Origin: Actinomycetota bacterium | GTDB taxonomy: Bacteria > Actinomycetota > Humimicrobiia > Humimicrobiales > Humimicrobiaceae | Direction: 5' to 3' | DNA length: 41,899 nucleotides | Assembly: GCA_028698215.1 (NCBI GenBank) | Contig: JAQVDY010000013.1 | Location: forward strand, 1 to 41,899 | Part shown: positions 5,688 through 15,935 of the stretch, one piece after another | Numbering within the stretch: the stretch's first letter is position 1 | Layout of the letters: every line of letters begins with the position of its first letter | Made by a program: the position numbers and the translations under genes | Notes under the pieces: generated by a model | Databases searched by the model: none | What the model was told of the DNA's origin: nothing | What the model saw: the letters and a program-made list of their open reading frames with translations, nothing else

Positions 5688-6626
5688 TTATCTAAGGTTC
5701 ATTGCCAGCTTAATAGCTCCCCAGACCGGCTTTTGGGTTAGCGGCATAAATTTAATATTCCTAAACTTTTTTTTTAAATTTTCCTGTAACACTGAGGTAA
5801 AATACTGCTTGCAGTTAAACACACTGCCCACAAAAACCAGGTCAAAAACATTATCATCAAAACCTAGTTTTTTGGCCACTGTGGCTATAGAGAGTTCAGC
5901 TTCCCCGGCTTCTTGGACTAAAATATCCCTGCATACATAATCATCTTTTTCTGCAGCAGAGCATACCACTTTAGCCAGGGAAGCTATCCTGCCTGTATCT
6001 AGGGGCTGGGCATAAACCCATTCAATTAAACCAAAAATATCTTCTAACTTTAGTTGTTTTAGTACCATATCCAGCAATATGGTAGAAGGACCCCTGCCAT
6101 CATAAAACTTCATTATTGCCTGCAGGGCCTTGGATGCTATGGAAAATCCGCTACCCTGGTCTCCCAAAATAAAATCCCAGCCATTAGCCCTGGCTTCCTG
6201 CCCTTGTCTGTTCAGGCCATAGCAATTGGATCCCGTACCGCATATAATCATTATGGCATCCGGACGGTCTGTTCCTGCATACAGTCCGATCTTGGAATCA
6301 TTACATATTATGGTTTTATCCTTGTTAAGATATTCCTGCAAAGGGGATTTAAAAATTATCTGTTCATAAACCGTTTGGTCTTTAGGGGTATCCAGGCCAG
6401 ACAATCCAAAACAAGCCCGGCTGAACCGTGAGCCTTTTTCTAGCCCAGCCAAGCCAGCTGCTTTATCTACAGCCTCATATATATTTTTAGCTGCCTTATC
6501 TATACCTACGCTTTTATAGTTTCCGGAGCCGCACCAAGATTCAGCCAAAACATGCCCTAAACTATCAGCCACCATAACTGCAGTTTTGGTGCCTCCTCCA
6601 TCCACTCCTAAAATAAATTCTTCCAT
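5688..6626 (-). CDS. BadF/BadG-type ATPase, N-acetylglucosamine-kinase-like
   Basis: A 312-residue ASKHA-fold kinase. The phosphate-1 loop is D-G-G-G-T-K-T (Asp9-Thr15), phosphate-2 is I-I-C-G-T-G-S-N, and G-D-Q-G-S-G-F-S follows as in eukaryotic-type N-acetylglucosamine kinases and bacterial MurNAc/GlcNAc kinases of the BadF family. No Fe-S cysteine cluster typical of the benzoyl-CoA reductase activase members is seen. It is the last gene of the minus-strand operon, six bases after the UroD-like gene. With a PIG-L deacetylase and a NagB-like deaminase upstream, phosphorylation of an amino sugar is the most natural role (inference). The family assignment is solid; the exact sugar is unknown. 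Confidence 0.82.
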   Translation of the reverse strand: MEEFILGVDGGGTKTAVMVADSLGHVLAESWCGSGNYKSVGIDKAAKNIYEAVDKAAGLAGLEKGSRFSRACFGLSGLDTPKDQTVYEQIIFKSPLQEYLNKDKTIICNDSKIGLYAGTDRPDAIMIICGTGSNCYGLNRQGQEARANGWDFILGDQGSGFSIASKALQAIMKFYDGRGPSTILLDMVLKQLKLEDIFGLIEWVYAQPLDTGRIASLAKVVCSAAEKDDYVCRDILVQEAGEAELSIATVAKKLGFDDNVFDLVFVGSVFNCKQYFTSVLQENLKKKFRNIKFMPLTQKPVWGAIKLAMNLR

Positions 6627-6632
6627 GCCTTT

Positions 6633-7766
6633 TTACTTATACATAGCCAATATATTTTCAGTAGGAGTATCAGGGGTTATATAATGGGAAGGCCCTAATA
6701 TAAGTCCCCCCTGACCCTCAAACAGCTCTTTTATCCTTTTTACCCTTTCGGTTACCTGCCGGGGTTTAGCGCTGGGAAGAAAACCCTGTATGTCCAGCCC
6801 GCCATGAAAACATAAGTCCTTTCCGAAATTTTTCCTTAATTCCGCCAGGTCCATATTTCTAGCAGAAGTTTGTACCGGATCCAGGATATCTACTCCCATC
6901 TCCACCAGGTCCGGCAGCACTTCAGTACAATTTCCACAGATATGGAAACATACTAAAAGCCCATGGCTTTTAGCTGTCTCTATTATTTTTTTATCCCATG
7001 GCTTATAGAATTTACGCCACAGCTGGGGTGAAAGCATCAGGCCCTCCTGGGAAGCAAAGTCATCCCATATGCCGTAAAGGTCAATCTTGGAGCCTATGCT
7101 GGCCAGGTTCTTCTGGCAAAATTCCCACATAAACTGGCCAATGTTTCCAATAAGTATTTCAGCATACCTCTGGTTGGCTACCAGATCCATAAGCATATGG
7201 TCCATGCCCCTCATAAAGATAGAGGTCATAAATATACTGTTTAGGCAGCTGGTATTTAAGAAATACTCATCAGAAGGCTTCAATTGGGATAATTTCAATT
7301 CCGGCTGCTGCTGTTCACTATGGTAATAAACCTGTTCTGAATTATTCCTGTAAACCTCAAAGTCAAACCAATCCAGCTGGGGATAAGGATAATTCCTTAC
7401 ATCGTCCAACTCGTCTTTTCCTGCCAAGGGAGGGTTTTTGGAAAAGACTATATCCCTGCTCCCCCCAGCCTGGATATCCACCGGTTTAATGCCCCAAATG
7501 TTAAACCGGTTAATCTCAAAAATAGTATCAAAATCAGGGCCTGCATATTTAGGAAAATAAGTGGTAAACCCACCCAGGGTCTCACCGTCCGAATAATTAT
7601 CAGCTCCCAGGCACTTTATAAGGTCAGGCCAGTTTTTTTCAATACCGCCCAAGCCGAAATAGTCCATAAGCCTGTCGTTTACCTCCGGCTCTCCCCGGTA
7701 CATAGTGGGCACCCGGCAGGCTTTATGGCCAATAGCATCCAGCAAAAGTTTTTTCATTGCTTTCAT
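6633..7766 (-). CDS. Uroporphyrinogen decarboxylase-like (UroD/MtaA superfamily) protein
   Basis: A 377-residue UroD-superfamily TIM barrel. The superfamily includes haem-pathway decarboxylases and zinc-dependent corrinoid or thiol methyltransferases. Late motifs are clear: V-C-F-H-I-C-G-N-C (H275, C277), G-V-D-I-L-D-P-V-Q, then L-C-F-H-G-G-L-D (C319) and L-G-P-S-H-Y-I-T-P-D-T-P. An H-x-C plus a later Cys resembles the zinc site of the methyltransferase branch rather than haem enzymes. Its ATG overlaps the preceding stop by one base (TAATG). Similar UroD-like genes of unknown function are often found in sugar operons of anaerobes; here it lies between a NagB-like deaminase and a kinase. A second in-frame ATG lies three codons in. 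Function unassigned. Confidence 0.8.
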   Translation of the reverse strand: MKAMKKLLLDAIGHKACRVPTMYRGEPEVNDRLMDYFGLGGIEKNWPDLIKCLGADNYSDGETLGGFTTYFPKYAGPDFDTIFEINRFNIWGIKPVDIQAGGSRDIVFSKNPPLAGKDELDDVRNYPYPQLDWFDFEVYRNNSEQVYYHSEQQQPELKLSQLKPSDEYFLNTSCLNSIFMTSIFMRGMDHMLMDLVANQRYAEILIGNIGQFMWEFCQKNLASIGSKIDLYGIWDDFASQEGLMLSPQLWRKFYKPWDKKIIETAKSHGLLVCFHICGNCTEVLPDLVEMGVDILDPVQTSARNMDLAELRKNFGKDLCFHGGLDIQGFLPSAKPRQVTERVKRIKELFEGQGGLILGPSHYITPDTPTENILAMYK

Positions 7767-8680
7767 TATTTAGGCGCTACCTTTATAGGGCTGGCTGTCA
7801 CTTCGTCTGCAGTAAACAAAACACTTTCCCTAGGATTGGGATGCAGCTGAAGCAAAGTAGCCGGCCTTTCCAGTGTAGGCGGATGCATGCAGGCTATCCT
7901 AAAAGAAGCCAGCTGCCAGTTCAAATCCCCGCCGTCACAATAAATTTCAATCCTCTTAGCCTCTATAATAGGCTTCATCCCTATGGTTACCGCTTTAGGA
8001 GGAAGACCGTAAGAATTTCCCCCCAGCCCGCATATGGAATTTATCACAAAAGTATCAGAATTAAGTTCTATAACCCTGGTTTTGGAATTAAGAAACTGCT
8101 CTATGGTCATTCTGCGGTAATAGGTATCATAAGGCTCATTGAAAGCTATATGCCCATGATAGCCAAGGCCTCCATAACAGACATCGATACCGCCCAGCTT
8201 CTCAATCATATCTAAATTATAATCAAGGTTTACTGGATCCGGCCATACAATTTGCCCTTCATTTAATCCCAGCTTTTTATCCAGCCTGTTGAATAAAGCT
8301 CCTTTCATATAGCCCCTGAAGCTCATAGGATGATCGGGTGCAATCAGCCTTCCTTCCCAATCCATATACTCATCCATAAAGAATATCCACCACTGGCTCA
8401 AATCCACCTGCTCTGCATTTAGTATATCGGCCAGCATAGGATACTGTGGGGTAGGCCCTACGGGAAGAATCATTTTGGTAGGGCTGCCCTTTTGGTTATT
8501 GTTAATAATATTATCGGCCATGGAACGGGCCATATTCTTATAAATTGAATGCTGGTCCTTTACTATATTTACCCCCACTCTAGCCCATTCCGCTATATCC
8601 TGGGGGGGCATAGCCATCATCTTTTCAAAATCAGCATCCCCGACCGTTTGATGGGTTACTATTCCCTGGAACTCACCCAT
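7766..8680 (-). CDS. Glucosamine-6-phosphate deaminase-like (NagB/6PGL fold) protein with altered active site
   Basis: A 304-residue NagB-family protein. Family landmarks are L-P-V-G-P-T-P, F-F-M-D-E-Y (D103, equivalent to E. coli D72), D-H-P-M-S-F, and G-L-G-Y-H-G-H-I-A-F-N-E-P, where H177 and E182 match the catalytic His143 and Glu148. The residue equivalent to catalytic Asp141 is His175, since the usual motif is G-x-G-x-D-G-H. The start is set by AAGGAGGG nine bases before ATG 8680; the open frame extends to 8701 without a good site. It is the fourth gene of the operon, 22 bases after the Gfo/Idh gene. NagB converts glucosamine-6-P to fructose-6-P plus ammonia; this protein may isomerise or deaminate a related sugar. 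Confidence 0.82.
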   Translation of the reverse strand: MGEFQGIVTHQTVGDADFEKMMAMPPQDIAEWARVGVNIVKDQHSIYKNMARSMADNIINNNQKGSPTKMILPVGPTPQYPMLADILNAEQVDLSQWWIFFMDEYMDWEGRLIAPDHPMSFRGYMKGALFNRLDKKLGLNEGQIVWPDPVNLDYNLDMIEKLGGIDVCYGGLGYHGHIAFNEPYDTYYRRMTIEQFLNSKTRVIELNSDTFVINSICGLGGNSYGLPPKAVTIGMKPIIEAKRIEIYCDGGDLNWQLASFRIACMHPPTLERPATLLQLHPNPRESVLFTADEVTASPIKVAPK

Positions 8681-8702
8681 AATTATCCCTCCTTGCATCA
8701 CC

Positions 8703-9722
8703 TTATAATTTTATTGCCTGCTTTTGCTTAACAGAATCTACTGCTGCCAGGGCCAGCTGCAATGCCGCTTTACCGTCCTGGAAGGTAGCTTCTTCTATAG
8801 GTTTGCCCTTATGAGTGCGGTCTACAAAATATTGGCATTCCAGCAGGTAGGCATCAGTACTGTCTACATCCAGCTCTTCTATGGACCCATCCGGTCTATA
8901 TACGGTTACTTTAGATGCCTGGTCCCTTTTTTCTATGTTCTTGCCGGCTCTAAGTATCCATTCAATTGTGCCCTCGGTGCATAATATCCTGAATATCATG
9001 GTGAAAGGGAAAGCGCCCTTAAAAGCCCAGCCCCCTTCAGCCAAAGCAGCTACCCCATTGGCAAACTGGATATTGGTAGCTATATGCACCATGCCCCCCT
9101 GCTTGATATTGTCCGGGTTATAGACTCCCTGGGCCATAACCACTTCCGGTTTTCCCAACAGCCAGATTAAAAAATCAAGGTCATGGATATGCAGGTCCAC
9201 TGCTGCTCCTCCGCTGTACTTTTCGTTAAGGCCCCAATCGCCTTGGTGCCAGTCCGGAAGTACGGCCAGCCTTTCGCAATAAGCATGCAGGGGCTGTCCC
9301 AGGTTTCCGCTTTGCACCAGTTGCCTGGCTTTTATATATTCAGGCCAAAACCTAAGTACATGCCCGATCATTCCCTGCACCTTGTTTTTTTCTATTACCT
9401 CTATCATCTGGTCAGCTTCATCCAGGGAAAGAGCCATGGGTTTTTCACAAAAAACATTCTTACCATTTTCAGCTGCCAAAGCAGTTAGCGGCTGGTGCAA
9501 GAAAGTTGGTGCACAGATATCAACATTATCAATTTCTTTAACCTCCTGCAGGCACTGATCCAGGTTTTCATAATATTCTGCGCCATGCTCCCTAGCCATC
9601 TGTAGCCCTTTTTCTCTTACATTATCCACCACCGCCACTAACTTGGCATTCTGTAACTGCCGGTAGGCATCAGCATGAACCTTACCTATAAACCCTGCGC
9701 CTACTATTGCAATGTTAACCAT
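8703..9722 (-). CDS. Gfo/Idh/MocA family NAD(P)-dependent oxidoreductase
   Basis: A 339-residue sugar or cyclitol dehydrogenase. The N-terminal Rossmann fold begins V-G-A-G-F-I-G-K-V-H; the family's catalytic-lysine motif C-E-K-P-M-A-L follows at about residue 92, and L-H-I-H-D-L-D-F-L-I-W-L fits the later dimer/active-site segment. Members oxidise hydroxyls of inositol, glucose, glucosides or amino sugars. ATG start preceded by AGGAAAGGA; the stop of the upstream isomerase is 18 bases away. In the operon it follows a PIG-L deacetylase and a TIM-barrel isomerase, so oxidation of a free or deacetylated amino sugar is plausible (inference). Substrate cannot be read from sequence. Confidence 0.88.
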   Translation of the reverse strand: MVNIAIVGAGFIGKVHADAYRQLQNAKLVAVVDNVREKGLQMAREHGAEYYENLDQCLQEVKEIDNVDICAPTFLHQPLTALAAENGKNVFCEKPMALSLDEADQMIEVIEKNKVQGMIGHVLRFWPEYIKARQLVQSGNLGQPLHAYCERLAVLPDWHQGDWGLNEKYSGGAAVDLHIHDLDFLIWLLGKPEVVMAQGVYNPDNIKQGGMVHIATNIQFANGVAALAEGGWAFKGAFPFTMIFRILCTEGTIEWILRAGKNIEKRDQASKVTVYRPDGSIEELDVDSTDAYLLECQYFVDRTHKGKPIEEATFQDGKAALQLALAAVDSVKQKQAIKL

Positions 9723-9740
9723 AATCTAGTTCATCCTTTC

Positions 9741-10529
9741 CTACACATACCCATAACTTTTTAAAAACTGGTATGACTGGGCAACAGCCTCATTAATCTC
9801 ATCTAAGGTTCGCTCCTTGCCGTCAAATTCTATCTCTACATCTATAGGCCCCTGGTAATCAGCTATTTTTTCAAAAATAATTTCAAAATCCACTAATCCC
9901 TGGCCCAAAGGAGGAAAGTTCCAGTCGCCTTTCTTGCCGCTTCCGTCATCTTTTAAGTGCAAATAAGCCATATAGGGCAGAGCCGCATCTATATCAGTTT
10001 CAGGCCTTACTCCGCCATACATTATAACATTGGAAGTATCGTAGTTGAGCCTGACATTGGGGTGATTTACCTTCTGTATTACTTCTGCCCCCTTGGTGCC
10101 ATTGTTAAGCCAGGGTCCATGCATCTCCAGGCAGATGGTAATACCTTTGTCTTTAGCATAGTCAGCTAACTGGCTGATATCCTCATAAAACTTCTTTTCA
10201 TCCTCTCCGGCATCAGTTACCAGATAAGAAACTCCAGCTTTATGGGTAAAGTCCATTACTTTCTTTAACCTCTGTACCCCGTTTTCGGTTCCCATACGGG
10301 TATGTCCTGATACGGCAATCATTTCCAGGTTATAGCTGGCTACCTTATCCAGCACTTTCTTATAGTCATCCGGACCCATATCTTCAGGCTTGGGCAGGAT
10401 ATGCTCAAAATAACCGGGGCAAGTAGCCATATCTACATATTTAAACCCGGCAGCAGAAATGCCGGCCAGGGCTTCATCCGGCCCGAAATTAGGATAGGTG
10501 GAAGTAACTACTGCTATTTTATTATTCAT
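9741..10529 (-). CDS. Sugar phosphate isomerase/epimerase (AP-endonuclease-2 TIM barrel)
   Basis: A 262-residue xylose-isomerase-like TIM barrel. The metal-binding set expected of the family is present: Glu in I-C-L-E-M-H-G, Asp in L-N-Y-D-T-S-N, His in Y-L-H-L-K-D-D-G and Glu in V-E-I-E-F-D-G. Enzymes of this fold are ketose epimerases, inosose dehydratases (IolE), inosose isomerases (IolI) or 3-keto-glycoside lyases. ATG start with AGAGGAG ten bases upstream. It lies between the PIG-L and Gfo/Idh genes, so it probably rearranges or dehydrates a sugar after oxidation. It is one of five such barrels in the window; this copy belongs to the ROK-linked operon. Confidence 0.85.
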   Translation of the reverse strand: MNNKIAVVTSTYPNFGPDEALAGISAAGFKYVDMATCPGYFEHILPKPEDMGPDDYKKVLDKVASYNLEMIAVSGHTRMGTENGVQRLKKVMDFTHKAGVSYLVTDAGEDEKKFYEDISQLADYAKDKGITICLEMHGPWLNNGTKGAEVIQKVNHPNVRLNYDTSNVIMYGGVRPETDIDAALPYMAYLHLKDDGSGKKGDWNFPPLGQGLVDFEIIFEKIADYQGPIDVEIEFDGKERTLDEINEAVAQSYQFLKSYGYV

Positions 10530-10553
10530 TTGTTTGCTCCTCTCAGCTATGGT

Positions 10554-11255
10554 TTAGGGAAGTACCCTTTTAGTTAATCCTTGTGGATACATTTTTTGCT
10601 GCATAAAAGCCTCAGCATAGGGAACAGCAGCTTGGAATCCCCTGAATTTGGCTACCGACCTTATAAATTCAGGGGCATCACTATCATGCATATCTTTTAG
10701 CCATCCCAGCTGGGTCTCCATCTTTAGCATCATTTCTATTTTAGTTTCTATGGTATCGGTTATATCCACATATTCCTGTGGCTCAAAATTAATTCCAGCC
10801 AAGGTGTCCATGTAATATAGGTAGGGAAGCTTGGTTGAGGCATCATAATCAGACTTCCACAAAACCAGGTTGGCCAGATAAGTTGCCTCAAATACAAGCT
10901 TGCTGGTATTTACATGGTCTGAATGGTAATCGCCGGGCGAGTGGGTAATAACCAGATCTGGATCAGCCTTCCTGATGACATCAATAACTTTTGCCCTACC
11001 ATCCAGGTCCAGCACTACTTCCCCGTCTGATAATCCGCCCCATATGGAAGTTGCACCTATAACCTTTGCTGAATTAATAGCTTCCTGGCGCCTCAGCTTG
11101 GCAATCTGTTCAGAGGTATGGGTAGAACTACCCTTATTTCCGTCACATAAGTGACAAATAAAAACCTCATGCCCTTCTTTGGCAAACCGGGCTAATGTTC
11201 CGGCACAAAGAAGCTCTACATCATCCGGATGCGCTCCAATGGCAAGTACCTTCAT
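10554..11255 (-). CDS. PIG-L/LmbE family deacetylase
   Basis: A 233-residue zinc-dependent N-deacetylase. The hallmark A-H-P-D-D-V-E is at residues 8-14 (H9, D12) and the second zinc motif D-Y-H-S-D-H (H111, H114) is present. Family members deacetylate GlcNAc-containing compounds such as GlcNAc-PI, GlcNAc-inositol (MshB), GlcNAc-malate (BshB) and diacetylchitobiose. I start at ATG 11255, with AAGGAGA ten bases upstream; a TTG two codons earlier sits too close to that site. It is the first gene of the operon, downstream of the ROK regulator. With a NagB-like deaminase and a NAGK-like kinase below it, it may take the place of NagA (inference). Confidence 0.88.
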   Translation of the reverse strand: MKVLAIGAHPDDVELLCAGTLARFAKEGHEVFICHLCDGNKGSSTHTSEQIAKLRRQEAINSAKVIGATSIWGGLSDGEVVLDLDGRAKVIDVIRKADPDLVITHSPGDYHSDHVNTSKLVFEATYLANLVLWKSDYDASTKLPYLYYMDTLAGINFEPQEYVDITDTIETKIEMMLKMETQLGWLKDMHDSDAPEFIRSVAKFRGFQAAVPYAEAFMQQKMYPQGLTKRVLP

Positions 11256-11412
11256 GTTCAATCATCTCCTTAATAAGCTTAAACTCTTTTCATCTTATAT
11301 ACACTCACTTTTTGTTATATCTAGCACCTCCTTATGCTTTTTTTCCAATTTTTTTCCCTTATTCCTCCTCTCATCCTGTTTATAATTATATCCACATCCC
11401 CAATTAAGGGAA

Positions 11413-12663
11413 TTAAGATAAAACTTCCTGGGCAATCTTATAAGGGAATTCTCCCACCAGCAGGGACTCCACCGCCATAAAAGCCGAACCGGTAACTCCT
11501 GCATCTTCTCCCAAAGAAGATAGCTTCAGGAAAGGCGTTTTAAAGGGCAGTGACCCCTTAACAAAATTTATAACTGGCTTTAAGAACCAGCTTTTTACCC
11601 CGGGCAGGCCGCATATATCGCCGCCGACCACTACAATTTGGGGATTAAGCAGTATAATGGTGTTTACCAGTACTACTGATATCAGCTCTACTGTCTCCTG
11701 TATGATTTTAGCGGCCAGCTTATCCCCCTTAAGGGCAGCATTGCAGACCATGGAAGGGGTAATGCCGTTTATATCTTTTTTTACTAAATCCCCCATTATA
11801 CTGCTGGCTCCAGCCTTTATGGCCTCTACCGATTTTTTAGTAAGGCTGGTAACCGAAGCATTTTTTTCCAAGAACCCCTTGTTTATGATCTTAAACTTTA
11901 AATTTTTTTCGCCCACTATACTGAACCCCACCTCTCCGGAAGATCCGTCTGCACCCCTGAACAGGTGGTTGTCTATTATGATTCCGCCGCCAATACCATT
12001 GCCTATTTCCATAAAAAAGATATTGCTAAACGGCTGGCCATGGCCATAATTCTTTTCCGCCAGTGCGGCCAGGTTAACATTGTTTTCTATAAATACCGGC
12101 ACCCCAAATTTCTTGCTTATGTGTTTACCTATATCCAGGTTTTTCCAACTCCCATACAGGGGAGCGCTTACTATCCTTCCGCTTCTGGCATCCACTACAG
12201 CCGGGATGCCGATGCATATGGTTTTAATTAAAGACCTGTAATTGTTGTTTTTTAAGATAGTGTTGATATCTTCATATAATTTATCAATAATATCTGGACT
12301 GTCCGTAATGGCTGAGCCCCATTGTTTTTTTATGGCTTCCCCGCTGAAATTGGACAACAGGCTCCTAATTTTTCCCCTTCCCAAATCTATGCCCAAAGCA
12401 AAGCCCTTCTGATCGTTTATCTTAACCAGAATAGGCCTTTTGCCGGTCCTGGTTTTTACTTTTTCCGTTTCTACCACATACTCTTCCTCCAGCAGTCTCT
12501 CTACCACCCTGGACACGGCAGGAGCGCTGATGTTAAGGTTACGGGACAGGCTTGCCCTGGAAATAGGGCCGTGCTGGCGAATATAGTTAAAAATTATGGA
12601 CGTGTTTATACGGTATTGTAATTTAGCGCTGGCTGTTTTTGAAAACTTTAATGACTTATACAT
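11413..12663 (-). CDS. ROK family transcriptional regulator (NagC/XylR type)
   Basis: A 416-residue repressor-type protein. Residues about 20-65 form a winged helix-turn-helix (I-S-R-A-S-L-S-R-N-L-N-I-S, then S-R-V-V-E-R-L). A ROK sugar-kinase-like domain follows, with G-I-D-L-G-R-G-K, E-N-N-V-N-L-A-A-L-A-E and I-G-N-G-I-G-G-G, and F-R-G-A-D-G-S-S-G-E-V-G as the ligand loop. The Cys-rich zinc motif (C-x-C-G-x-x-G-C) that normally follows is absent. The gene lies just upstream of the amino-sugar operon on the same strand, which is its likely target. Its 5' leader has no ribosome site but is filled with AGTTA repeats that look like its own operator, so autoregulation is likely. Confidence 0.88.
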   Translation of the reverse strand: MYKSLKFSKTASAKLQYRINTSIIFNYIRQHGPISRASLSRNLNISAPAVSRVVERLLEEEYVVETEKVKTRTGKRPILVKINDQKGFALGIDLGRGKIRSLLSNFSGEAIKKQWGSAITDSPDIIDKLYEDINTILKNNNYRSLIKTICIGIPAVVDARSGRIVSAPLYGSWKNLDIGKHISKKFGVPVFIENNVNLAALAEKNYGHGQPFSNIFFMEIGNGIGGGIIIDNHLFRGADGSSGEVGFSIVGEKNLKFKIINKGFLEKNASVTSLTKKSVEAIKAGASSIMGDLVKKDINGITPSMVCNAALKGDKLAAKIIQETVELISVVLVNTIILLNPQIVVVGGDICGLPGVKSWFLKPVINFVKGSLPFKTPFLKLSSLGEDAGVTGSAFMAVESLLVGEFPYKIAQEVLS

Positions 12664-12792: not shown

Positions 12793-13356
12793 TTACCGTT
12801 TATTTCTTCTGAAAATATAAGTGGCTAAATAAACCACATAACCGGTTTTTAATACAATAAACTTACAGTTCCTGATAGCAATATTTTTGCCCAAAGCCTT
12901 GCCCCCCACTGTTAAGGAAGCAATAAAGCCGGTTATCACTACACTTAATAGCGTTTTTTCCAAAGTAGGGTTATCAATCATTAACCTGAACACTATAACC
13001 GCTCCCACCGAGCCGCTCACAATACCGGTAATATCCCCGATTACGTCATTGCAAAAATTAGCTACCCGGTCTGCATTCTTTATCAGCTCTACCGCTTCCC
13101 TGGCCCCCTTTATTTTCTTGGCAGACATGGAATTAAGGGGAACTTCAGTGGCTGCAGTTACTGCCACCCCTACAATATCAAACAATACCCCTATGGCGAT
13201 AATGATTACCAAAATGATTAATGCCGGGATCAGGGCTACATTAGTAATAAGGGTCTCAGATATTAAACTGAGTAGAATAGCTAACAGAAAGGTCCAGGCA
13301 GTTATGGCTATAATCCAGCTTCTTATATGCTTGCTGGACTTTTTATATTTAACCAA
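12793..13356 (-). CDS. oapA: OapA-type integral membrane protein (DUF21/CorB-like N-terminal family), OLE RNA partner
   Basis: A 187-residue, very hydrophobic protein with about four membrane segments (near residues 13-33, 41-66, 108-125 and 135-152) and basic ends. The segment A-N-F-C-N-D-V-I-G-D-I-T-G-I-V-S-G and the earlier G-V-L-F-D-I-V-G-V-A-V-T-A-A match what I know of the small membrane proteins often annotated as CorB/Mg-Co transporters, including OapA. There is no CBS domain, unlike true CorB. OapA binds OLE RNA and brings it to the membrane in Bacillota. The TTG start is supported by GGAGG seven bases upstream, and the gene follows directly on a large structured RNA on the same strand, which is the known OLE-oapA order. 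Identification is from memory of the family and the context. Confidence 0.78.
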   Translation of the reverse strand: MVKYKKSSKHIRSWIIAITAWTFLLAILLSLISETLITNVALIPALIILVIIIAIGVLFDIVGVAVTAATEVPLNSMSAKKIKGAREAVELIKNADRVANFCNDVIGDITGIVSGSVGAVIVFRLMIDNPTLEKTLLSVVITGFIASLTVGGKALGKNIAIRNCKFIVLKTGYVVYLATYIFRRNKR

Positions 13357-13372
13357 AAATTTTCCTCCAGTA

Positions 13373-13955
13373 AAAAGATGGTAGTACAGCGAGTAAACTT
13401 TGCGGTTTAGGTCCAGTAGGATTTCCCAGATGGATACTTATGCGTTGCCACATAAGCGGTTTCCCTTTAAATCCATCTCTATAGCGTCACCTAACTATAG
13501 GACTGGATTACCACTAAAACCACACTGTAATCCCCGCCGTACTTCTCTTTCGAGAACAGTCTAGGAGCTTTCCTCGACAGTTTCACCAACCACTAGCCTC
13601 TTTAGCAAAGAAGGTTTCAGCCGGGTAGCACTTAAAGCTGCTGAGCTCCTAGCAGCTTTACCACTCAACAGCGGCATCCCCCTACTCCACGCAAGGCAGG
13701 CTACACTGCAGGGCCTATTAAGCCACTGCAGGTTACCTCTAGATGCATTGGTTGCCTTATACATCTAAAGTCTCCACGGAAGCTGGGTCTACGCCCACAT
13801 GCCGTTGTGGATCGCCCAACTTCCTTAACCCCCAGGTCCAGCCCCCAACTGGGCGTCAGCAGCCAGACCCACGGACTTCACCTGTACGCCCTTAACGGAT
13901 TTTTAGCCCCGCCTTCATGATTGGGAGTACTGACTAGAATACTGCACCATCTTTT
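13373..13955 (-). ncRNA. ole: Probable OLE RNA (ornate large extremophilic RNA)
   Basis: About 583 nt without convincing coding sequence but with many perfect hairpins. The ends close with a 10-bp helix, AAAAGATGGT (13955-13946) with ACCATCTTTT (13382-13373). Inside are AGATGTAT/ATGCATCT (13741-13766, one G-U), AAAGCTGCT/AGCAGCTTT (13634-13659), CTGCAG/CTGCAG (13706-13731), GGATTAC/GTAATCC (13505-13533), TTCTC-GAAA-GAGAA with a GNRA loop (13543-13556), CTATAG/CTATAG (13479-13500), and AGATGGAT/ATCCATCT (13428-13478) enclosing CTTATG/CATAAG (13437-13456). Size, a promoter just upstream and an OapA-type gene beginning 17 bases downstream match the OLE locus known from anaerobic and extremophilic Bacillota. 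I could not run a covariance model, so the class name rests on size, structure density and context. Confidence 0.75.
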
Positions 13956-13992
13956 CATTTATCAAAATAACAACTTTGGTTTGGTATAAATA

Positions 13993-14021
13993 CTTATATC
14001 ACACTCATTGGTTTTTCTCAA
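13993..14021 (-). promoter_or_regulatory. Promoter of the OLE RNA-oapA unit
   Basis: On the minus strand TTGAGA (14021-14016) and TATAAG (13998-13993), each one mismatch from consensus, are separated by exactly 17 bases. Transcription would start near 13986, about 30 bases before the terminal helix of the structured RNA. Confidence 0.6.
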
Positions 14022-14055: not shown

Positions 14056-15696
14056 TTAAGAAGACATATAGAAGGCAAAATCTTTTTTGCCGGAGTTTTT
14101 TACCCGGTAAAGGGCAATATCGGCTTTTTTTATAAGTTCTTCCGCCGTATTTCCGTCCTCAGGGTATAAGGCTATACCCATGCTTATGCTGGCTGAAACC
14201 ATACGGCTATCTATATTTATAGGCTGGTCCAGCACCCTTATGATTTTATCTGCCACCCTGGCTACATTATCCCTGTTGACCAGGTTGGTAAACAAACATA
14301 TAAATTCATCCCCTCCCAGCCTGGCTACTGTATCTGATTTTCTTACTGCACTTTCTATCCTTTTTGCTACCTTAATCAAGAATTCATCACCTGCTGTATG
14401 GCCCAGAGTGTCATTTATGTCTTTAAAATCATCTAAATCCAGCATAGCTACCGCTACCTGGTTTTTATTTCTCTGGGCATTAGCCAGGGCCATTTCTATG
14501 CGGTCACCAAACATCCTACGGTTAGGCAAACCGGTAAGAGGATCGTAATAGACCAGGCGGTTAATCTGCTCCTGGTTCTTTTTTCTTTCAGTTATATCCC
14601 GGGCAACGGTTAGGATAGCTTTTCGGCCCTGGTAATTAATAACCTGGCTGTTTAACTCCACCGGAATTATGTCTCCTTTTTTAGTAATGTGGGCACTCTC
14701 CATGAACGCCTGTCCTTCTTCCATAATCTTTTCCACCCGCCCGGTAACTTTAGCGCTAAATTCTGGTGAATCAATATCTGCAACTGATAATTTAAGCAAT
14801 TCTTCCTTGCTGTATCCTAACCGGCGGCAAGCCTGGTCATTTACTTCCAAAAAATGGCCTTCTAAATCATGGATGAATATAGCATCGTCGATTAAATTAA
14901 ATAGATCCAAGAATTTCTGTGCTGTTTGCATCAATCTTTTTTCGGTATTGCGCTCTAAAGCTTCCAGCTCAATATTTTCTAAAGCTAGGGCTATATCTGC
15001 TGCCACCTCTGCAAACAATGCCTTTTCCTCAGCATCATTTACAAATTCCTGGGATATGGATACTACCATATACCCATAGGTTTTTTTCCTTTTCAGGGGT
15101 GCGCTTAAAGCTCCCCTGTTATTGTAATTACGGCACAGGATACAGTCTTGACAATCATGTCCGGTATTATCAGTAGACCAGAACTCATCTTGTTTTAAAT
15201 TATTCAAGCAATTAAGATAACCACCCTGCTTAAGATGCCTGCCCAGGTTTTCTTCCTCCCCTTCCAGGCCCGAGCTATATAGCTTTTCTACTTTTCCCTT
15301 ACTGTCTACCAAGACTATCCAGCAATTTAAATACCCCCTGTCCCTGACCATAATATGGCAGACCTGTTCTAACAGCTGATGGGGATTATGCTCCCTTAAT
15401 ATCAGTTGATTAACATCTCCAATAGCACTAAGTATGCGGTTTAAGTGCTCTATTCTTTGGGCATCAGTTAGGGATTCTTTAGCCCTGTTTCTTATTACCA
15501 GCCCTATAATCACAATAACTATCGCCACTATAGCCCGCATATAAAATTCATGGATGTCGCCTATAGGCCACAAATTTTCTGTCAGGCTTCCGTTATCAAA
15601 TAAAAAGTAGCTGGCCAGGGATTCAGCCAGCCAGTAGAATAAGGCTCCGCCGATAGAAATAAGTAATATTTTGTTGTACCATCCGTATTTAGACAT
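14056..15696 (-). CDS. Membrane-anchored GAF-PAS-GGDEF diguanylate cyclase
   Basis: A 546-residue c-di-GMP synthase candidate. Two membrane helices (about residues 10-33 and 50-70) frame a short outside loop. A GAF-like domain (about 85-260) follows and contains D-C-Q-D-C-I-L-C, a cysteine-rich insertion that could bind metal or sense redox. Next come a PAS domain (about 265-375) and a GGDEF domain with intact G-G-D-E-F (about residue 460). R-K-S-D lies exactly five residues before it, so the inhibitory I-site is intact. No EAL domain. The ATG at 15696 opens into the first helix but has a weak site; TTG 15753 with AGGA five bases upstream would add 19 residues. It stands alone upstream of the OLE locus. 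Confidence 0.85.
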   Translation of the reverse strand: MSKYGWYNKILLISIGGALFYWLAESLASYFLFDNGSLTENLWPIGDIHEFYMRAIVAIVIVIIGLVIRNRAKESLTDAQRIEHLNRILSAIGDVNQLILREHNPHQLLEQVCHIMVRDRGYLNCWIVLVDSKGKVEKLYSSGLEGEEENLGRHLKQGGYLNCLNNLKQDEFWSTDNTGHDCQDCILCRNYNNRGALSAPLKRKKTYGYMVVSISQEFVNDAEEKALFAEVAADIALALENIELEALERNTEKRLMQTAQKFLDLFNLIDDAIFIHDLEGHFLEVNDQACRRLGYSKEELLKLSVADIDSPEFSAKVTGRVEKIMEEGQAFMESAHITKKGDIIPVELNSQVINYQGRKAILTVARDITERKKNQEQINRLVYYDPLTGLPNRRMFGDRIEMALANAQRNKNQVAVAMLDLDDFKDINDTLGHTAGDEFLIKVAKRIESAVRKSDTVARLGGDEFICLFTNLVNRDNVARVADKIIRVLDQPINIDSRMVSASISMGIALYPEDGNTAEELIKKADIALYRVKNSGKKDFAFYMSS

Positions 15697-15935
15697 AGCC
15701 CCAATATATATGTTGGATAATTTAAATAAATTTAACCCTAAAAGCCAAAGCAAACAATCCTGGCCAAACTATAATGACAGTAACCCCGCTTTGGCGGCAG
15801 CATAAAGAAGTATCTGCTGCCCTGTTTAAAAAAGATATTATTATACTTATAATACTATCAATACAAGATTGCAACTATAAATATTAAATACTTTATTTAT
15901 TTTCTTAATTAATAAAGGGGATAAATAAGGATATC

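Follow-up and report, generated by a model that had tools for sequence, protein, structure and literature searches.

The window, by which we mean the whole stretch of DNA analysed here (41,899 nucleotides), contains a genuine OLE RNA gene together with the gene for its membrane-protein partner, OapA. OLE ranks among the largest conserved RNAs of bacteria for which no biochemical function is known. Comparison with related genomes indicated that a full-length OLE RNA and OapA were in all probability acquired once by an uncultured family of Actinomycetota, in which an RNA-OapA particle is apparently working without the proteins OapB, OapC and bS21. The literature treats OLE RNAs as a class of Bacillota. 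In a survey of 2024, 2,822 OLE hits fell in Bacillota and 24 elsewhere; the latter were left out because they might reflect transfer or assembly errors (PMC11332333). What is new here is an OLE-OapA locus outside Bacillota, found without OapB, OapC and bS21, in which the base of the OapC kink turn has been lost.

Identity and structure of the OLE RNA

A sequence-only reading of the window had proposed an OLE RNA at this locus, and the covariance-model search bore this out. The Rfam OLE model RF01071 was matched over its complete length (model positions 1–616) with 496.4 bits, compared with a gathering score of 50, and an E-value of 8e-143. The 583-nt RNA closed by a perfect 10-bp helix, as described in that reading, was found to be delimited by P1, in which the 5' strand AAAAGATGGT (13955–13946) pairs with the 3' strand ACCATCTTTT (13382–13373), and the GAAA-capped hairpin it had mentioned was present within the RNA (TTCTCGAAAGAGAA). 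The predicted structure was more stable than 20/20 shuffled sequences (minimum free energy z = -5.7). Among 14 family members, compensatory changes were observed in 68 of the 183 consensus pairs, including four pairs of P1, whose columns 12–21 with 598–607 showed A-U/G-C/U-A/C-G compensations within the family. The structure is thus maintained by selection.

Conservation was assessed at 201 positions that were at least 93% conserved among 27 Bacillota OLE RNAs, 187 of which were retained in the OLE RNAs of the host family. L4 (CUAAAAAU, bridge B1) was also retained. In the dimer loop L9.3, the GGCC common in Bacillota was replaced by the palindrome GAGCTC in nine of the 17 family RNAs, including that of the window, and the palindrome was weaker or absent in the others. 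Palindrome switching in L9.3 was reported in a cryo-EM study as support for the dimer bridge B3 (PMC12286853). The OLE RNA of G007 (L101) had no P9.3 arm, which bears the dimer kissing loop; the arm is also missing from OLE RNAs of several Syntrophomonadaceae and of other Bacillota. As a separate observation, the 5' part of the OLE sequence of L005 (5234–5400; an Anaerosolibacter metagenome genome) could not be aligned with that of its close relative L031, and the remainder aligned; the L005 sequence is possibly a chimeric assembly.

OapA and the layout of the locus

The coordinates of the locus are collected in Table 1. The promoter, the TTG-initiated membrane-protein gene 17 nt past the end of P1, and the ROK regulator and GGDEF protein on the flanks were all recovered as the sequence-only reading had placed them, and its assignment of the membrane protein to OapA was strengthened by several observations. 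The closest OapA relatives were 70–73% identical and came from three records with Actinomycetota titles, followed by Bacillota OapAs at about 50% and below. A full OLE RNA was found just upstream in 8/8 of the first relative loci scanned, and likewise at 24 further Bacillota OapA loci. OapA is a four-helix membrane protein, and its signature residues FDxxG, NFCNDVIGD and GGKxxGK were retained in the protein of the window. Searching the PDB by sequence gave no match, and the Pfam CNNM match was sub-threshold (26.1 bits versus a cut-off of 28.4). The predicted structure (pLDDT 85) found the membrane domains of CNNM/CorB transporters as its best fold match (E-value 0.013, probability 1.00, modest TM). 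The predicted fold of OapA is thus closest to the membrane domain of the MpfA/CorC/CNNM Mg2+ transporters, from which OapA differs in being without CBS and CorC domains.

Table 1. Features of the OLE-OapA locus in the window
Feature	Position	Strand	Basis
ROK-family regulator, downstream of oapA	11413–12663	-	Pfam ROK, 153.5 bits
oapA, TTG start at 13356; 187-aa membrane protein akin to the membrane domain of CNNM/CorC	12793–13356	-	Sequence, Pfam, predicted fold
OLE RNA, full Rfam model 1–616	13362–13966	-	RF01071 match; covariation
Ribosome-binding site GGAGG of oapA	13364–13368	-	Sequence
583-nt RNA closed by P1	13373–13955	-	Sequence; family compensations in P1
Inferred C85 partner G196 in J6/7 kink turn, here still G	13772	-	Alignment; pair assignment inferred
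A at the position of H. halodurans C85 (k-turn C-helix)	13883	-	Alignment
Sigma-70-type promoter TTGAGA-17-TATAAG, upstream of OLE	13993–14021	-	Sequence; recurs in relatives
-35 TTGAGA, 17-nt spacer, -10 TATAAG	14021–14016 (-35), 13998–13993 (-10)	-	Sequence
GAF-PAS-GGDEF protein, flanking OLE locus	14056–15753

The oapA gene adjoins the OLE RNA, and this order was common to the family loci examined. An uninterrupted frame was seen in 15 of 16 complete family genes. The oapA of L170 (G070) was broken by an in-frame stop codon near residue 43 beside an intact OLE RNA, which reflects either recent decay or an assembly error. The TTG start at first seemed special, but TTG was also found in part of the Bacillota sample. 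In G001, G003, G007, G021, G064 and G067, a TTGAGA/TTGTGA-17-TATAAG/A promoter pair was observed, 36–73 nt ahead of the GCAGTAT core. A ROK gene was also present near oapA in G001 and directly after oapA in G007; the OLE-OapA-ROK synteny was retained in these two genomes and was different elsewhere.

Beyond the ROK regulator, a minus-strand gene block (5688–11261) resembled a sugar or amino-sugar catabolic cluster, with a PIG-L deacetylase, a sugar-isomerase-like TIM barrel, a GFO/IDH/MocA oxidoreductase, a glucosamine-isomerase-like protein, a URO-D-like protein and a BadF/BadG-type ATPase. The first four genes of this block also adjoin OLE-OapA-ROK in G007. The window further contains a tRNA gene on the plus strand (2140–2213; Rfam, 65 bits).

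Host and distribution

A Bacillota host had been implied by the sequence-only reading, but the genome groups with Actinomycetota; the phylum name rests on record titles and on a ribosomal-protein tree. Comparison of RpoB with solved structures gave no separation of Actinomycetota from Bacillota, and the ribosomal-protein tree was therefore used instead. In this tree of four ribosomal proteins, the host family and its phylum-mates stood apart from 14 Bacillota OLE hosts (100). Of the 35 genomes of the host family, 17 carried a full-length OLE RNA; it was found in 0/5 other members of the host class and was likewise missing from all of the other Actinomycetota genomes sampled, about 357 in number. 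Because 18/35 family genomes were without it, OLE is dispensable in the family. In a soda-lake metatranscriptome, OLE RNA accounted for about 1% of the ncRNA reads, the hosts of which were left unassigned there (PMC6704655), and Bacillota hosts also inhabit this environment; the titles of L002 and L003 bear the labels T3-Sed10 and CS-Sed11 of the soda-lake data sets of that study.

In a tree of 46 OLE RNAs, the 17 family RNAs formed one clade (100/100), and the 17 family OapAs clustered together, apart from one long-branched Christensenella sequence. Distances between the RNAs correlated with those between the OapAs (r = 0.95). The single clade and the match of RNA and OapA distances support the view that the pair entered the family once, was inherited together and was moved or lost within the family; taken with the covarying helices, they speak against a misassembly and in favour of one old acquisition. 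The initial idea of strict vertical inheritance was abandoned, because the correlation with ribosomal distances was weak for both OLE (r = 0.28) and OapA (r = 0.36). A second OLE/OapA lineage was noticed within the family, comprising L092, L165, L166 and L167 (genus g7) and L095 (G020), in which NFCNDVIGD of OapA reads NFCLDVIGD (NICQDVIGD in G020). The OLE and OapA trees both united G020 with g7 and the ribosomal proteins did not, which suggests transfer inside the family.

Search for the protein partners

Three proteins, OapA, OapB and OapC, are essential in H. halodurans, where bS21 is also important under cold and ethanol stress (PMC12054373). Most of the genomes are incomplete metagenome assemblies, and distant homologues of these partners may have escaped the following searches. 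OapC is assigned to the L7Ae family. An L7Ae-family protein was found in 28/28 Bacillota OLE genomes searched. In the host family, 23 genomes were searched, among them every one of the 17 that carry OLE, and none had such a protein above the cut-off. Both counts take in the paralogue YlxQ besides OapC. For bS21, present in 6/6 Bacillota genomes searched, nothing exceeded the cut-off in the family (0/17 OLE-bearing genomes), and there was no match in the genome of the window.

The Pfam KOW model returned only L24- and NusG-type positions and missed OapB even in H. halodurans. In that species OapB was therefore identified as the gene lying between map and infA, a comparison with PDB 7k9b confirmed it, and an alignment was then used for the search. 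Comparing the alignment of five OapBs with 40 class genomes yielded nothing credible, and 0/35 family genomes gave a match of meaningful strength. The map-infA slot, the usual site of OapB, was closed in the genome of the window, and an OapB elsewhere in the genome, as envisaged by the sequence-only reading, was not detected by this search. Among OLE species, OapB is present in about 60% and OapC in about 45% (PMC11332333), so that the presence of either does not define the OLE RNP.

In Bacillota, MpfA anticorrelates with OLE (PMC11332333). None of the 30 class members searched had the CorC domain of MpfA, irrespective of whether they carried OLE, and 11/11 other phylum members had it. Since the domain was missing across the class regardless of OLE, OLE is not a simple one-for-one replacement of MpfA.

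Loss of C85 in the OapC kink turn

Among the 201 Bacillota-conserved positions, C85 was the sole one lost in 17/17 family RNAs. The equivalent base was A in 15 and G in two of them, versus C in 28/29 Bacillota OLE RNAs. No indel was present between the anchors GGC and GAAG around this position, which shows that the loss is no alignment artefact. In H. halodurans, the C85A mutation abolished OapC binding in vitro and rendered OLE inactive in cells (PMC9723947). The partner of C85 was G144 in the first model; by cryo-EM, the kink turn forms with J6/7 (PMC12286853), from which we infer that the partner is G196. When position 85 is A or G, neither G144 nor G196 can form a standard pair with it, and the C85-G pair of the OapC kink turn was accordingly missing in 17/17 family RNAs. 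Departures from the Bacillota consensus were enriched at the kink-turn positions (5/17 versus 14/201 overall, P = 0.003). The OapC kink turn with its C85-G pair is specific to this partner and does not define OLE RNA. The association between C85 loss and OapC absence comes from one clade and thus represents one event. In 14 of the 17 family RNAs, a pair between bases 84 and 196 would be possible, with a 4-nt bulge left over, so that some kink turn may survive. RNAalifold paired these kink-turn bases into P4a.

Discussion

The locus resembles the OLE RNP of H. halodurans (Halalkalibacterium) in its full-length RNA, most conserved positions, P1 closure, the position of OapA directly downstream and the predicted CNNM-like fold of OapA. 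It differs in its Actinomycetota host, in that OapB, OapC and bS21 were not found, and in that C85 of the OapC kink turn is A or G. OLE variants 1 and 2, of the TANB77 and RF39 clades, likewise occur in lineages largely without OapB and OapC (PMC11332333). However, these variants are shortened, with P7–P9 or P7 and P8 missing, whereas the RNA described here is of full length and mostly retains the conserved bases of the OapB region in P12.2–P13.

It could be argued that the contig is Bacillota DNA that came to be placed in an Actinomycetota genome by faulty binning or assembly; the 2024 survey voiced this suspicion about its 24 hits outside Bacillota. The genomes concerned are indeed metagenome assemblies, and the non-Bacillota hits of that survey typically had Bacillota-like flanks (PMC11332333). 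But the RNA clade is absent from the sampled Bacillota and recurs in 17 genomes of different assemblies, both G001 and G007 contain the OLE-OapA-ROK block and more genes of the window, and the window itself spans one contig of 41.9 kb, four other genes of which are shared with L094. We consider such an artefact extremely improbable. Nor is it at all likely, though somewhat less far-fetched, that the locus is the decaying relic of a transferred OLE that became non-functional once OapB, OapC and bS21 were missing. The patchy presence in the family (17/35), the missing partners, the lost C85 and the loss of P9.3 in G007 would fit such a decay, but it agrees poorly with the 187/201 conserved positions retained, the compensatory changes in 68 pairs, the open oapA in 15/16 family members with a complete gene and the recurrence of a promoter of like kind in the family. 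Acquisition of the pair followed by continued use in the family remains the preferred reading, and a likely one.

How the loss of C85 should be interpreted is less certain. We tentatively suggest, at somewhat short of even chances, that the OLE particle was reduced to RNA and OapA, that the absence of OapC preceded or caused the dismantling of the kink turn, and that the particle may replace MpfA-type Mg2+ export. A serious competitor, itself clearly below an even chance, is that the change at C85 was neutral drift, or a switch to a kink turn built on the 84-196 pair with its 4-nt bulge or to an extended P4a, and not a consequence of OapC loss. The pairing potential of base 84 in 14/17 RNAs, the placement of these bases in P4a by RNAalifold and the protein-free kink turn seen in this region by cryo-EM (PMC12286853) all fit that explanation, whereas the conservation of C85 in 28/29 Bacillota and the concentration of departures at kink-turn positions (5/17 versus 14/201, P = 0.003) speak against it.

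The family gained the OLE-OapA pair once and has since kept, moved or lost it. By analogy with experimental work on OLE in H. halodurans, the following course might be proposed. The OLE RNA would be transcribed from its own promoter and would probably dimerise, and OapA, a putative small relative of the membrane domain of the Mg2+ transporters CNNM and MpfA, may anchor it to the membrane. The OLE-OapA particle could then help the cell to tolerate metal-ion (Mg2+) and other stresses. It seems that OapB, OapC and bS21 are not needed for the particle to function in the host lineage.

At least some of the OLE hits outside Bacillota are real, so that their published exclusion merits revisiting, and the relationship between OLE and MpfA is extended to a new lineage. 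The occurrence of a full-length RNA with OapA in a second phylum, minus three partners and C85, helps to split the core of the OLE machine from its accessory parts, and the lineage offers a natural test of which parts matter. If the reading of an RNA-OapA particle is true, OapB, OapC and bS21 would be accessories, and the core function would reside in the pair of OLE RNA and OapA.
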